DNA of 64,000 nucleotides. Origin: Halostagnicola sp. A-GB9-2. Its GTDB lineage: Archaea; Halobacteriota; Halobacteria; Halobacteriales; Natrialbaceae. The notes under the pieces are model-generated. The model saw nothing but the letters and a program-made list of their open reading frames with translations, made no database searches and was not told the DNA's origin. Numbering within the stretch: position 1 is the stretch's first letter; the number at the start of each line of letters is the position of its first letter. Below are positions 7,328 through 39,004 of this stretch, one piece after another. Made by a program: the position numbers and the translations under genes. The stretch covers positions 496,001 through 560,000 of the forward strand of contig NZ_JASJOC010000002.1 in the NCBI RefSeq assembly GCF_030068615.1. Reading direction: 5' to 3'.

Positions 7328-7625
7328 CTCGCTCACCTCGCGGGTCGTTGTCGGGCTCTGGAATCGTCGCCTCGGGGCCGACCACGAGACAGAGAGTGCG
7401 GTTCGTCTCCGCGCTGATCTCGCGCAGGCGTCTGCGGACAGCTCTCTGTTCGGCCGACTCGAGGTGCTCGAGTGCTGTTGGTCGGGTCGTCTCCTCGAGG
7501 AGGATGTTTGTGAGGTGATCGATGGTCTCGAGGCGTTCTCGAAAGAGTCGCGTCGCGTGGTCAGTCTCGCTCGATGCGTCTTGTCGGTCGGGGCTTTCAT
7601 TACCCCGTGGGTTGTCATCTGACAT
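7320..7625 (-). CDS. Small acidic MSDD-type protein of regulatory cassette A
   Basis: 101 residues, highly acidic, with a helical core (RLFRERLETIDHLTNILLEE ... RRRLREISAET). It is homologous to the protein at 29717: both start MSDD, contain (R)LETID, and have a (R)LREI(S/C)AE helix. Its stop overlaps the start of the coiled-coil gene by 8 nt. It is read from a conserved promoter (7753-7761) through a leader of about 100 nt with a hairpin. Function unknown. Confidence 0.7.
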   Translation of the reverse strand: MSDDNPRGNESPDRQDASSETDHATRLFRERLETIDHLTNILLEETTRPTALEHLESAEQRAVRRRLREISAETNRTLCLVVGPEATIPEPDNDPRGERDE

Positions 7626-7657
7626 GGCTTCCGTAGAGTGGTTACGGGAGCTTTTCG

Positions 7658-7684
7658 CGGACTGGTGGGGCTAACACCAGTCCG
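7658..7684 (-). promoter_or_regulatory. Leader hairpin upstream of MSDD-type gene A
   Basis: A perfect 10-bp stem (7658-7667 with 7675-7684, CGGACTGGTG on the plus strand) with a 7-nt loop, ending 32 nt before the ATG at 7625. Cassette B has a hairpin at the same place with a different but still paired stem, while the 3' flanking sequence up to the ATG is nearly identical. This compensatory pattern suggests the RNA fold itself is conserved. Confidence 0.6.
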
Positions 7685-7752
7685 TTATCTGGACTGTTGA
7701 GCGATGAGTCCGAGCGGTAGCTTCCGTACAGTTGCCCAACAAATCCCACCCA

Positions 7753-7777
7753 CTTATAGACTAGCGTATTTACGCTA
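7753..7777. promoter_or_regulatory. Promoter GTCTATAAG for cassette A with adjacent inverted repeat
   Basis: On the minus strand GTCTATAAG (7753-7761) is a TATA-type element shared exactly with cassette B (29592-29600). Directly next to it on the upstream side is TAGCGTATTTACGCTA (7762-7777), a perfect 7-bp inverted repeat with a 2-bp spacer. It is a good candidate operator for the divergent winged-helix protein at 7854. Confidence 0.55.
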
Positions 7778-7853: not shown

Positions 7854-8132
7854 ATGCGTCCTCGACCAGAATGGATGTCGTTGAAAGACGGGCTCATCCT
7901 CGAGTTCCTCGCTGAGCACGATCTCGAACTACCAGCGAAGCCACTCTATCGGAATCTCAATCGCCACGGCCACGAGATCGGCTACTCGACGGTTCGGCAA
8001 CGATTGGGTGTCCTCGAGGACTACGGCCTGATCGAGAAAGTCGACGAGGCTGGCTATTATGCGATCAGTTCGAACGGAGAAGCTTATTTGGCAGGCAACC
8101 TCGACGTTTCGGAACTTGAGTCAGAGGACTAA
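7854..8132 (+). CDS. Winged-helix DNA-binding protein (PhiH1-repressor-like), cassette A
   Basis: 92 residues from ATG 7854, chosen because MRPRPEWM aligns with the start of its homolog at 29494 (MRKRAEWM). The fold reads as a winged helix: ILEFLAEHDLELPAKPLYRN (helices), VRQRLGVLEDYGLI (recognition region) and a beta wing ending YYAISSNGEAYLAGNLD. Proteins of this type resemble the repressor of halophage PhiH1 and are usual in proviruses and plasmids. It is divergent from the MSDD-type gene and probably binds the shared intergenic region (inference). Confidence 0.75.
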   Translation: MRPRPEWMSLKDGLILEFLAEHDLELPAKPLYRNLNRHGHEIGYSTVRQRLGVLEDYGLIEKVDEAGYYAISSNGEAYLAGNLDVSELESED

Positions 8133-8201: not shown

Positions 8202-8308
8202 TTATATGACACTACAGGGCATTAGGTCAAACGGAAGCCATGAATAGCGCAGATGGGCGTTTCCGTTGAAATGCCCCGGGTGCTCATGACACCCGAGACG
8301 TGGCTTCC
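8202..8308 (+). ncRNA. Candidate structured RNA with its own TATA box
   Basis: The 303-bp gap between two genes holds TTATAT (8202-8207) and, at the distance where transcription should begin, a multi-branch fold. P1 is GGAAGCCA 8233-8240 with TGGCTTCC 8301-8308. P2 is 8255-8263 with 8268-8276 (GGGCGTTTC/GAAATGCCC, one G-U pair, 4-nt loop). P3 is CGGGTG 8277-8282 with CACCCG 8290-8295. P2 and P3 abut, so they could stack. No frame looks coding. It could be a small RNA, a long leader of the HalOD1 gene at 8436, or a right-end scaffold of a lost IS200/IS605 element. Confidence 0.5.
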
Positions 8309-8435
8309 AACCCCATGAAGGATCGGTTGCCATGATTGGATATCTTCTCCGCGGGCTTAAACATCCCGTCCGACAGACGAATCGAAGTCGAACCACTGCC
8401 GCACGCTCTCGGTACGCTACGAGGGTTGCTGAGGC

Positions 8436-29236: not shown

Positions 29237-29494
29237 TTATATCGTGTCCGCGAGTTCGCTTGCATCGAGTTCGCCCTCGAGATACTCTCCACCGGAGTCA
29301 GAGAGAACGTAGAACCCTCGAGAGGGTTTCTTCACCAGCCCGTACGAAGCGAGTTTCCGACAACGCACTCCGATGTAGTCGTTGTTGCGATCGATTTCGT
29401 CCGCGATAGACTTGGGTGTCCCAGCCCCGTGTGACTCGAGGTATTCGAGAATTTCGTCGTCCGCCCGTGTCATCCACTCGGCTCGCTTTCGCAT
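29237..29494 (-). CDS. Winged-helix DNA-binding protein (PhiH1-repressor-like), cassette B
   Basis: 85 residues, MRKRAEWMTRADDEILEYLE at the start, homologous to the cassette A protein at 7854. The helix-turn-helix segment GTPKSIADEIDRNNDYIGVR and the wing SRGFYVLSDSGGEYLEGELD are clear. It is divergent from the MSDD-type gene at 29717, exactly as in cassette A but mirrored. A short inverted repeat (GCACT 29502-29506, AGTGC 29516-29520) just before its start could be its operator. Confidence 0.75.
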   Translation of the reverse strand: MRKRAEWMTRADDEILEYLESHGAGTPKSIADEIDRNNDYIGVRCRKLASYGLVKKPSRGFYVLSDSGGEYLEGELDASELADTI

Positions 29495-29591
29495 CTGTAT
29501 AGCACTGCTAAAGGGAGTGCAATCAATCTACGCTGAAGCATATCCATAGATATCTATTACAGAGTGCTGAAAATGTAAAGCATAGTTTTAT

Positions 29592-29600
29592 GTCTATAAG
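29592..29600 (+). promoter_or_regulatory. Promoter GTCTATAAG for cassette B
   Basis: Identical to the nonamer at 7753-7761 of cassette A. Placing the start about 27 nt downstream gives a leader of about 93 nt before ATG 29717, unusual in organisms with mostly leaderless mRNAs. Confidence 0.55.
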
Positions 29601-29657
29601 AAATATAATTGGGAACAACGGGATACTGGATCACGTAACGATCCACGAATGAAACGT

Positions 29658-29682
29658 GACCCGGTGATGGAGACACCGGGTC
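29658..29682 (+). promoter_or_regulatory. Leader hairpin upstream of MSDD-type gene B
   Basis: A 9-bp stem, GACCCGGTG (29658-29666) with CACCGGGTC (29674-29682), and a 7-nt loop. The stem differs from that of cassette A, yet pairing and loop length are kept. The 34 nt from the hairpin to the ATG match cassette A almost base for base. Confidence 0.6.
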
Positions 29683-29716
29683 CGCGAGAAGCTCCCGTAA
29701 CCACACTACGGAAGCC

Positions 29717-30121
29717 ATGTCAGATGACGATTCACGGGAACTTGAAACTCCCGACCGAACCAAATCGACTCGAGCCGACGAAGACACCACTAACGATACA
29801 GACACGACCACCAATACAGCCCACCACACAGATACCGACCGCGGGTCCTATAGCGACCGCCTCGAGACCATCGATCGAACTGCGCGGCGACTCCTCGAGG
29901 ATGTCCGAGCCGACGAGAGTCTCGAGACCCGCGTCGTCGCGCGTCATCTCCGAGAGATTTGTGCGGAAGTCGAGTGCATCGAGCGCGAGCTTCGATCCGA
30001 CGCGGACGTGCCGATGGTTCGACGAAGCGGGAGCGGGACGCGGTCGGCTCTCGGCCCGGAGCCGGCTGCCTTCGAGCGCTGGGAACGCGACCGAACGGAG
30101 GGTGAGGAAAATGGGGAGTGA
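29717..30121 (+). CDS. Small acidic MSDD-type protein of regulatory cassette B
   Basis: 134 residues, homologous to the protein at 7320-7625: MSDD start, then a Thr/Asp-rich linker, DRLETIDRTARRLLED and ARHLREICAEVECIERELR. It is longer than copy A at the linker and C-terminus. A second start (ATG 30110) overlaps its end exactly where cassette A begins its coiled-coil gene, but the frame that follows is low-complexity and runs into the opposing glycosyltransferase, so cassette B has lost that partner. Confidence 0.68.
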   Translation: MSDDDSRELETPDRTKSTRADEDTTNDTDTTTNTAHHTDTDRGSYSDRLETIDRTARRLLEDVRADESLETRVVARHLREICAEVECIERELRSDADVPMVRRSGSGTRSALGPEPAAFERWERDRTEGEENGE

Positions 30122-37770: not shown

Positions 37771-38718
37771 TCACGACTCGGGAGAGTCGCCCGTGATCGT
37801 GCTTGGGGGAGTTTTGCTCACGTTAGTACTGGATCCGGCATCGATACTGGCGTCGCCGTCGATCGTACTGTTCCTAAGCGAGAGGTTCCCGTTGACGCCG
37901 GCATCGATAGCGACGTCGCCGTTGATTGTACTGTTGTTCATATTCAGTGTCCCATCTGATCCGGCATCGATTGTGACGTCGCCGTCGATCGTACTATTCC
38001 GTAGATCGATGATACCGTTAGTTGCGGGGACGACAAGGGTGACATCGCCATCGATTGCACTATTGCTCATATCCAGCGAACCGGACTGTGACCCCTCTAT
38101 ATACACGTCTCCCGAAACAGTCGTGTTCGGATTGATCGTCAGATGCGCGTTCATCGTCTCCACCACGACGTCACAGCTCGTGTCTCCGTGGAGCGTCGTC
38201 GGGGCGGTGTACTCGTCGACGCACGTCTCGTCGGCCGGTTCGCAGTGAACGTCGATATCCCGCTCTAACTCGACGGAGTTGTCGGGCCCCTCGGCGACGA
38301 TCTGTAACGAGACGAGATCCGCCACAGTGGACGCACACGATAGCTCACCGACGATTGGTGCTCGCTCACCGGACGCCAGTGTCGTCGGTTGATTGGAACT
38401 GTCAAGGGTCAGTTGATCTCCGTCACCCGTCGTTATCTCGAAGGACGAGAGCGTCCCTGAGAACTCGTTCGTGACCGTCGCGAGTTCGACCTCCTCGCCT
38501 GCTTCCCCCGAAATATTCTCGTTAGGTTCGATTTTGAGCAGGGCCTCGTCATCGCTCGAGATGCCGAGATTGAACTGGCGAGACGCCTGGGCGACATCGA
38601 ATGCCCCGCTCGCGTGGACCGCTCCGAGTCCGACCCCGCTGGCAGTAAGCATCGTCAGGATAGACCGGCGGCTCATCACCCCTGTCTTCCCTCGGGACCG
38701 TCTCCGTTTTCTGGACAT
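37771..38718 (-). CDS. Tat-exported DUF1102-like protein with beta-helix repeats
   Basis: 315 residues from ATG 38718. A twin-arginine signal (SRRSILTMLTASGVGLGAV) is followed by a region like haloarchaeal DUF1102 surface proteins (ASRQFNLGISSDDEALLKIE). From about residue 195, five imperfect units of about 21 residues repeat the pattern N/S-S-T-I-D/N-G-D-V-T-I-D-A (STIDGDVTIDAGSDGTLNMN, STINGDVAIDAG, and so on), the spacing of a solenoid beta-helix. The repeat is also visible at DNA level as recurring GACGTCGCCGTCGAT-like blocks. It is probably a cell-surface protein. Residues up to 190 contain four Cys. Confidence 0.7.
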   Translation of the reverse strand: MSRKRRRSRGKTGVMSRRSILTMLTASGVGLGAVHASGAFDVAQASRQFNLGISSDDEALLKIEPNENISGEAGEEVELATVTNEFSGTLSSFEITTGDGDQLTLDSSNQPTTLASGERAPIVGELSCASTVADLVSLQIVAEGPDNSVELERDIDVHCEPADETCVDEYTAPTTLHGDTSCDVVVETMNAHLTINPNTTVSGDVYIEGSQSGSLDMSNSAIDGDVTLVVPATNGIIDLRNSTIDGDVTIDAGSDGTLNMNNSTINGDVAIDAGVNGNLSLRNSTIDGDASIDAGSSTNVSKTPPSTITGDSPES

Positions 38719-39004
38719 TTTCGATACGCTAGATGTTCGTAGATACAACAACGGAATCCCGCCGGATCAGTGTTTCTATCGGGCAGATACCGACTCGGTG
38801 TTCAACTAACAGGACAAACGGCTGAATCGAACGAGACGCGCCGGCTGACTCGAGTCGCCCTTCCTCGGGCCCATCGGCGGACGAAAACGGGCCACGCGTT
38901 GGCCATGACGGTGGGAAAATGGACGTGTTCGCCCCTCGAGGGAATGCGTCTCGAGGGACCGGCGATGGATACTCCGTTCTGCCTCCGAAAGCAGCAGTGA
39001 CGAC

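Follow-up and report, generated by a model that had tools for sequence, protein, structure and literature searches.

A conserved haloarchaeal leader with two alternative pairings as a candidate lysogeny-control element of provirus integrase operons

Two genes of the MSDD type in Halostagnicola sp. A-GB9-2 are preceded by unusually long leaders, each with a hairpin shortly before the ATG. They lie on 64,000 nucleotides (nt) of contig NZ_JASJOC010000002.1 (positions 496,001 to 560,000), the whole of which we call the window. An initial annotation read the paired differences between the two hairpins as selection on RNA structure, and suggested a protein-binding leader or an attenuator. What, then, is this leader, and which genes does it serve? 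It is a conserved structured element with two competing, covarying pairings, a promoter at a defined position, a TATA-like box on the minus strand and a recurrent operon context. With moderate confidence, we favor the reading that it is a lysogeny-control leader of haloarchaeal provirus integrase or early operons, and that it includes a promoter for an antisense RNA spanning the leader, the arrangement seen in the T1/T_ant pair of virus phiH.

From 5' to 3', the element consists of segment a (ACGGAAGC or a variant), stem-loop SL0, an A-rich linker, stem-loop SL1, strand C, a loop of 6-7 nt, strand E, the ATG and, inside the open reading frame (ORF), stem-loop SL3. Strand C has two alternative partners: strand E, forming SL2, or segment a, forming P1. 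One motif (ACGGRAGC), repeated in direct and inverted orientation, underlies all three segments, which vary in concert, for example (in the order a, C, E) as ACGGAAGC, GGGCTTCCGTG and CACGAAAGCC; ACGCGAGT, GGCTCGCGTA and TACGCAAGCC; or ACGAGCGT, GCGCTCGTG and CACGAACGC. The two window copies, A and B, have the following parts.

29586..29591, plus strand: copy A, predicted sense TATA box TTTTAT, about 29 nt 5' of segment a (family profile)
29618..29623, plus strand: copy A, segment a ACGGGA, where the RNA is predicted to begin; complement of TCCCGT at 29693-29698 (family a:C covariation)
29627..29645, plus strand: copy A, SL0, TGGATC-ACGTAAC-GATCCA (fold)
29655..29686, plus strand: copy A, whole SL1 hairpin (fold and family covariation)
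29658-29666 and 29674-29682, plus strand: copy A, SL1 core, GACCCGGTG and CACCGGGTC, ending 34 nt before the ATG at 29717
29691-29699, 29700-29706 and 29707-29715, plus strand: copy A, SL2, as strand C, 7-nt loop and strand E, with one C.A mismatch
29717..30121, plus strand: copy A, first ORF, 134 amino acids (aa), MSDDDSRELETPDR...
29735..29753, plus strand: copy A, SL3 inside the ORF, CGGGA ... TCCCG (sequence and family test)
29740..29748, minus strand: copy A, TATA-like box GTTTCAAGT, predicted antisense start at about 29715-29716
7753..7760, minus strand: copy B, predicted sense TATA box TCTATAAG (family profile)
7720..7727, minus strand: copy B, segment a ACGGAAGC, predicted RNA 5' end
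7684-7675 and 7667-7658, minus strand: copy B, SL1, CGGACTGGTG - TTAGCCC - CACCAGTCCG, ending 32 nt before the ATG at 7625
7627..7651, minus strand: copy B, SL2, GCTCCCGTA-ACCACTC-TACGGAAGC, with one C.A mismatch
7583..7686, minus strand: copy B, match from SL1 to SL3 including the ORF start at 7625 (covariance model R2, see below; 84.9 bits, E-value 2.5e-14)

The annotated hairpin is SL1, present in both copies with its 7-nt loop and GGTG/CACC top at the distances from the ATG that had been described. The last ~35 nt before the ATG had been called almost unchanged and single-stranded; they are indeed nearly the same in A and B, but they form a hairpin, SL2, with the core CCGTA-N7-TACGG and the outer helix GCTCCCGTA-N7-TACGGAAGC, whose 3' strand stops one base short of the ATG in both copies. 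A leader of ~100 nt is consistent with the TATA boxes of A and B, ~29 nt 5' of segment a. Both copies beat all 200 dinucleotide shuffles in RNA folding (z -3.3 for A and -4.6 for B), and the dinucleotide-controlled fold excess amounts to 3-6 standard deviations (sd).

Could the hairpin simply be a functionless accident in two recent duplicates? Copies A and B are 86% identical across 80 base pairs (bp), and two copies alone are thin evidence of paired change. However, collecting homologous leaders, as the initial annotation had proposed, refutes this explanation, which we regard as having virtually no chance. With a covariance model of SL1-SL2-SL3 (R1; threshold E-value <=0.001), 190 of 391 haloarchaeal genomes have at least one match; they represent 57 of 86 genera, and the element shows compensatory changes. 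Up to 10 copies occur per genome, and R1 finds five in the window's own genome; a second model built from a diverse set (R2) scores copies A and B at ~85 bits each. An exact-type pattern for SL2 only is found in 52 of the 391 genomes, with almost no matches to a reversed control pattern. In a phylum-wide sample, 31 genomes have matches, and among the matches listed all are from the window's own order. No Rfam family matches the element above its gathering score.

Covariation between the paired strands carries the structural argument. Across 149 elements, permuted partners pair worse than the real ones (z -17.7 for SL1, -11.1 for C:E and -7.1 for a:C). Because kinship inflates such tests, we also simulated columns independently on a FastTree tree of 97 diverse homologues (300 simulations) and counted compensatory cells, those with changes on both sides. 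Choosing segment a by complementarity would inflate a:C pairing, so in this test a was anchored by sequence profile alone. Compensatory cells number 103 in SL1 against 19.7 under the null (maximum 56), 87 in SL2 against 7.2 (maximum 44) and 68 in a:C, that is P1, against 22.2 (maximum 60); none of the 300 simulations reaches any of these values. For SL3, the fraction of paired cells (0.909) exceeds the null maximum of 0.897 (0/300), with 40 compensatory cells against 12.0 (null maximum 56). Slid and parallel control pairings stay at the null level. Thus, selection on RNA structure, first suggested by paired changes in two copies, is supported. RNAalifold on the raw MAFFT alignment recovers only 9 pairs, a one-base bulge in SL1 shifting position. 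An extension of P1 5' of segment a (P0) is seen in single sequences, but it would fall upstream of the predicted start.

Where does the transcript begin? In 81 homologues anchored on segment a, A/T content peaks sharply and only once, at -28 (0.96), and AA occupies -35/-34; this TATA/B recognition element signature 28-35 nt 5' of a places the predicted start within a few bases of segment a. TATA box and predicted start lie upstream of all hairpins, and the leader is predicted to be as long as it had first appeared. In the phiH1 record, T4, an early lytic transcript, has its mapped start at the 5' end of segment a, exactly where a 16-bp 5'-terminal helix (GACGAAGGUAAUCGC:GCGGUUGCCUUCGUC) begins. 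This counts against the idea that the inverted repeats are merely DNA half-sites of the divergent repressor, with no RNA structure involved. Dimeric repressors do bind repeats of one motif in direct and inverted copies, as a, C and E are, but here the repeats extend up to ~115 bp downstream of the predicted start, a/C stems vary with G.U pairs (23 cells), the loop lengths of SL0 and SL1 vary, and the fold excess persists under dinucleotide control. Furthermore, the phiH repressor operator has been described beside the T4 promoter (PMC4284463). We judge an operator-only explanation highly improbable.

A second promoter is predicted on the opposite strand. A TATA matrix learnt from sense promoters only was scanned along the minus strand and has its maximum at +23..+31 relative to the ATG, with a mean score of 2.35 (all windows: -7.66, sd 2.03; best score elsewhere downstream of +50: -5.36). 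In 95 of 148 elements, no other minus-strand window from +5 to +100 scores higher. The peak predicts an antisense start at -2. Positions T26 (0.89), A28 (0.99) and A29 (0.95) of the box are conserved, T26 and A29 being third codon positions that stay conserved despite GC-rich usage. Information at the third positions of codons 7, 9, 10, 11 and 12 amounts to 1.2-1.7 bits, a sign of nucleotide-level selection at the ORF start, which is reflected in the common 'SRGxExPDR' N-terminus. The T_ant box of phiH1 sits at the equivalent position.

The two strands also differ in how strand C can pair. Just one mismatch interrupts SL2 in 125 of 149 elements. C.A accounts for 147 mismatch cells, each at position 5, 6 or 7 counted from the loop, even though the helix sequence around them changes. 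Over 50 distinct C/E pairs, C.A/A.C cells outnumber G.U cells by 54 to 2, and a C.A in the sense strand is a G.U on the opposite strand. Distinct a/C pairs, with the commonest combination left out, have 23 G.U against 15 A.C. Partition functions for 108 elements give pairing probabilities of 0.68 for C:a and 0.15 for C:E in the sense strand and 0.51 for C':E' in the antisense strand (Wilcoxon p 4e-13 for the contrast, relatedness ignored). A whole-element fold-energy strand test is mixed and dominated by SL2; since a downstream control stretch favors the minus strand as well, we use only helix-specific counts for the asymmetry. From these counts and folds, our reading is that SL2 may be retained for an antisense RNA and held weak in the mRNA. 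A need merely to weaken SL2 could also fit the sequences, but other mismatch types should then be commoner.

Would the leader need an antisense RNA at all? It could act in cis as a translational switch, between P1 with the ATG free and SL2 with the ATG sequestered, triggered by a small molecule, an ion, a host or viral protein or transcription kinetics, with the C.A mismatch tuning SL2. P1 and SL2 do share strand C and both covary, SL2 abuts the ATG, and partition functions of 149 elements are divided (C:a dominant in 89-100, C:E in 40-53). Such a switch leaves unexplained why a TATA-like box stands on the minus strand at constant spacing from the ATG, and why C.A is used almost exclusively rather than G.U or other mismatches. 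Of the features of a riboswitch, the alternative pairing is present; Rfam offers no match, and beyond the helices no invariant core resembling a ligand site is evident. We consider it unlikely, although it is the alternative to which we give most weight.

With a lysogeny-control leader covered by antisense RNA, events would run as follows. Sense transcription would start at segment a; P1 would form in most mRNA and, with SL2 weakened by its C.A mismatch, leave the ATG free. In the antisense RNA the C.A becomes G.U, and SL2 would fold as that RNA's own 5'-terminal hairpin. In a lysogen, the divergent winged-helix repressor would shut the sense promoter, and mRNA that escapes would be bound by the antisense RNA and have its ATG masked, or removed by a host RNase in the way reported for phiH T1. 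Downstream genes, many of them joined by 4-nt ATGA/GTGA overlaps, would be silenced along with the leader ORF, and induction would reverse the silencing and release integrase expression. We infer that such an RNA is made across the family and controls the integrase operon, the C.A/G.U asymmetry being its signature.

How far does the parallel with phiH go? Reportedly, Stolt and Zillig showed in 1993 (PMID 7683366) that the T1 leader in the L-region of Halobacterium virus phiH is under the control of the antisense RNA T_ant. According to a review, binding of T_ant exposes T1 to host RNases, which cut the ribosome-binding site from the first ORF (PMC4284463), and the phiH1 genome paper of 2018 calls the antisense topic still not fully explored (PMC6210493). 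In the phiH1 record, T1, T2 and T3 start at 38582 (plus strand) and T_ant at 38732 (minus strand), the base before the ATG of a PadR-like gene that starts at 38733, with imm, a winged helix-turn-helix (wHTH) gene on the minus strand, on the other side. This order of a divergent wHTH gene, a leader (~150 nt in phiH) and a PadR-like first gene is that of orf4, leader and orf3 in virus SNJ2. The start of the PadR-like protein (MPNHDSQGNKG) resembles the family ORF start. As in the family, the 5' end of T1 (AGAGCAGG) and an ATG-proximal segment (AGAGCAUG) are both complementary to a central UGCUC; the stretch before the ATG reads AGAGCATG, and the pair that is C.A in sense and G.U in antisense recurs. 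Unlike in the family, SL2 of T1 overlaps the AUG, and no SNJ2-type integrase lies downstream. An antisense RNA is proven in phiH, and for the family it is a prediction.

The T4 leader of phiH and the ORF48-ORF49 intergenic region of phiCh1 also resemble the family, with a divergent repressor gene, a long a:C helix, SL1 and an SL3-like hairpin, and the mapped T4 start is where the family start is predicted. Both differ in that no ATG directly follows strand E, which pairs with a segment further downstream, and in their weak R2 scores. The SNJ2 integrase operon (orf3-orf2-int; NC_074646) is a full member, with the leader, a divergent orf4 and the integrase; its Orf3 is PadR-like (PF03551, 5.6e-12). 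The SNJ2 literature that we covered, which did not include the primary 2018 paper, makes no mention of a leader structure. The element also occurs in viruses HRPV-9, Halfgib1 and Humcor2, and it is absent near the integrases of LSV-48N and HRTV-25.

In bacteria, CopA/CopT of plasmid R1 is a structured leader covered by an antisense RNA, with variable loops. SL1 of the family shares with it a U-turn-like loop (YUNR); the family differs in belonging to an archaeal integrase or early operon rather than to plasmid replication, and we claim no sequence kinship. SL1 loops begin with YUNR in 58/149 elements in sense and 3/149 in antisense. SL2 loops keep their 6-7 nt and are highly variable in sequence, like the specificity loops of antisense systems.

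Several observations weigh against our preferred reading. The phiH1 and phiCh1 leaders are matched where expected but score weakly, at 11.0-14 bits with R1 and at 15.8 and 17.3 bits with R2 (E-values 0.12 and 0.04); T1 of phiH1 reaches 11.0 bits with R1 (E-value 0.0083 in 1.3 kb) and has no R2 match up to an E-value of 1. Kinship with phiH thus rests on layout, mapped starts and common details, not on score. The minus-strand A/T box also sits in the SL3 loop, where a role as an RNA loop is possible. Copies A and B fold with SL2, not P1, and in the main Natrialbaceae class the C.A mismatch is found in both P1 and SL2. For SL1 the minus strand gives a slightly better fold, for SL0 the plus strand. 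Under the tree-aware null, a test of single column pairs is weak, giving 3 pairs at E<0.05 (two in SL1/SL2, one extending SL1 inward) and none in a:C; the helix-level test is the more informative of the two. With these points in view, the element still appears to be a relative of the phiH T1/T_ant leader, and this sense/antisense pair seems a better parallel than a protein-binding leader or an attenuator. Transcription attenuation in particular is not borne out, as there is no conserved U-run within 25 nt after SL3 across the family.

Antisense control of an archaeal virus leader has been described once before, in 1993 for phiH. If control here is of the same kind, few structured RNAs in haloarchaea would be as widespread as this element, which stands in front of the integrase and would occur in pleomorphic viruses, probably in head-tailed viruses and in many integrated elements. 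With it, archaeal lysogeny control gains a defined RNA accessible to experiment in tractable lysogens, for example Natrinema J7-1 (SNJ2). More tentatively, and with less than even confidence, we suggest that one DNA stretch yields two RNAs to which wobble asymmetry gives different folds, the ATG hairpin forming in the antisense RNA and not in the mRNA, and G.U pairs of the mRNA 5' helix being broken in the antisense RNA, and that this is a general, horizontally shared lysogeny switch of unrelated archaeal virus families. If true, it would be a clear case of selection exploiting the G.U/C.A asymmetry for different folds of two strands.

Which genes follow the leader? We oriented 86 neighbourhoods; many loci end early, so the integrase count is a lower bound. 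A divergent wHTH gene like SNJ2 orf4 is found in most of them (64 and 55 by two queries), starting 160-210 bp from SL1 at almost constant spacing. In at least 44, an SNJ2-type integrase gene follows downstream on the strand of the leader. The gene directly after the leader differs: it may encode a PadR-like regulator, a zinc-ribbon protein, a tiny ORF or the integrase itself. The initial tie to MSDD-type genes is thus lost, and a leader specific to the MSDD protein is excluded by the unrelated downstream ORFs. A transposon end or TnpB guide RNA, an idea raised by the repeated GGAAGC motif, is likewise excluded, the element being fixed between repressor and integrase operon.

The same neighbourhoods bear on the suggestion of a protein-binding leader, in which a winged-helix protein, the first gene product or a host RNA-binding protein would bind SL1/SL2 and block translation. 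The wHTH gene is a near-constant neighbour, the GGUG/CACC top of SL1 is conserved, and the second base of the SL1 loop is U in most elements (94/149). However, first ORFs are unrelated between loci and range from 17 aa to several hundred, so that the gene product cannot be the general ligand, and the loop sequences of SL1 and SL2 vary widely. We regard this explanation as improbable.

Short first ORFs are frequent: 41 have fewer than 90 codons, and about two dozen of these overlap the ORF that follows by 4 nt (ATGA/GTGA), this second ORF being of integrase size in several loci (L122, L124, L185). The leader ATG is thus probably used and the downstream genes translationally coupled, judging from these overlaps. 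A small zinc-ribbon-like protein (MPSKEVVRIEDRQDRWRFVCPRGHRSWEPTNHHFWCQKCA) without a Pfam family match is encoded downstream in 17 of the 86 neighbourhoods, ~205-445 nt past the start of SL1 (loci L102, L104, L109, L110, L120, L123, L142 and L144 among them). Between a tiny first ORF and the next gene, a F(H/T)FHS-like translation is frequent and corresponds to a TTCACTTTCAC-like DNA motif, 60-200 nt from the ATG at L036, L040, L137, L142, L159 and L162.

In the window itself, both copies have the divergent gene and there is a probable third copy.

29237..29494, minus strand: copy A, divergent winged-helix gene, SNJ2 Orf4-like
7854..8126, plus strand: copy B, divergent winged-helix gene (tblastn with SNJ2 Orf4, 1e-16)
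8231..8374, plus strand: probable third, diverged copy (R2 match 8270-8374, 23.9 bits, E-value 0.0054)

No SNJ2-type integrase was found with copy A or B within the window, which makes them orphan or remnant loci; copy A adjoins a glycosyltransferase gene and looks like a remnant. The probable third copy has a 36-aa ORF (MIGYLLRGLKHPVRQ...) with an apparent start at ~8330 and the RG-x-K-x-P family pattern; its end appears to overlap the following ORF by ATGA. Elsewhere, the highest copy numbers are 10 (genomes G059 and G066) and 9 (G050 and G053), and two tandem copies lie within 2 kb at L176, L177 and L178; mutual immunity or cross-talk between copies may occur. Degenerate forms in HHPV4 (L190, 2752-2844) and Harhisp1 (L193, 3221-3322) keep SL3 and the ATG-proximal GCC and have a reduced SL2.
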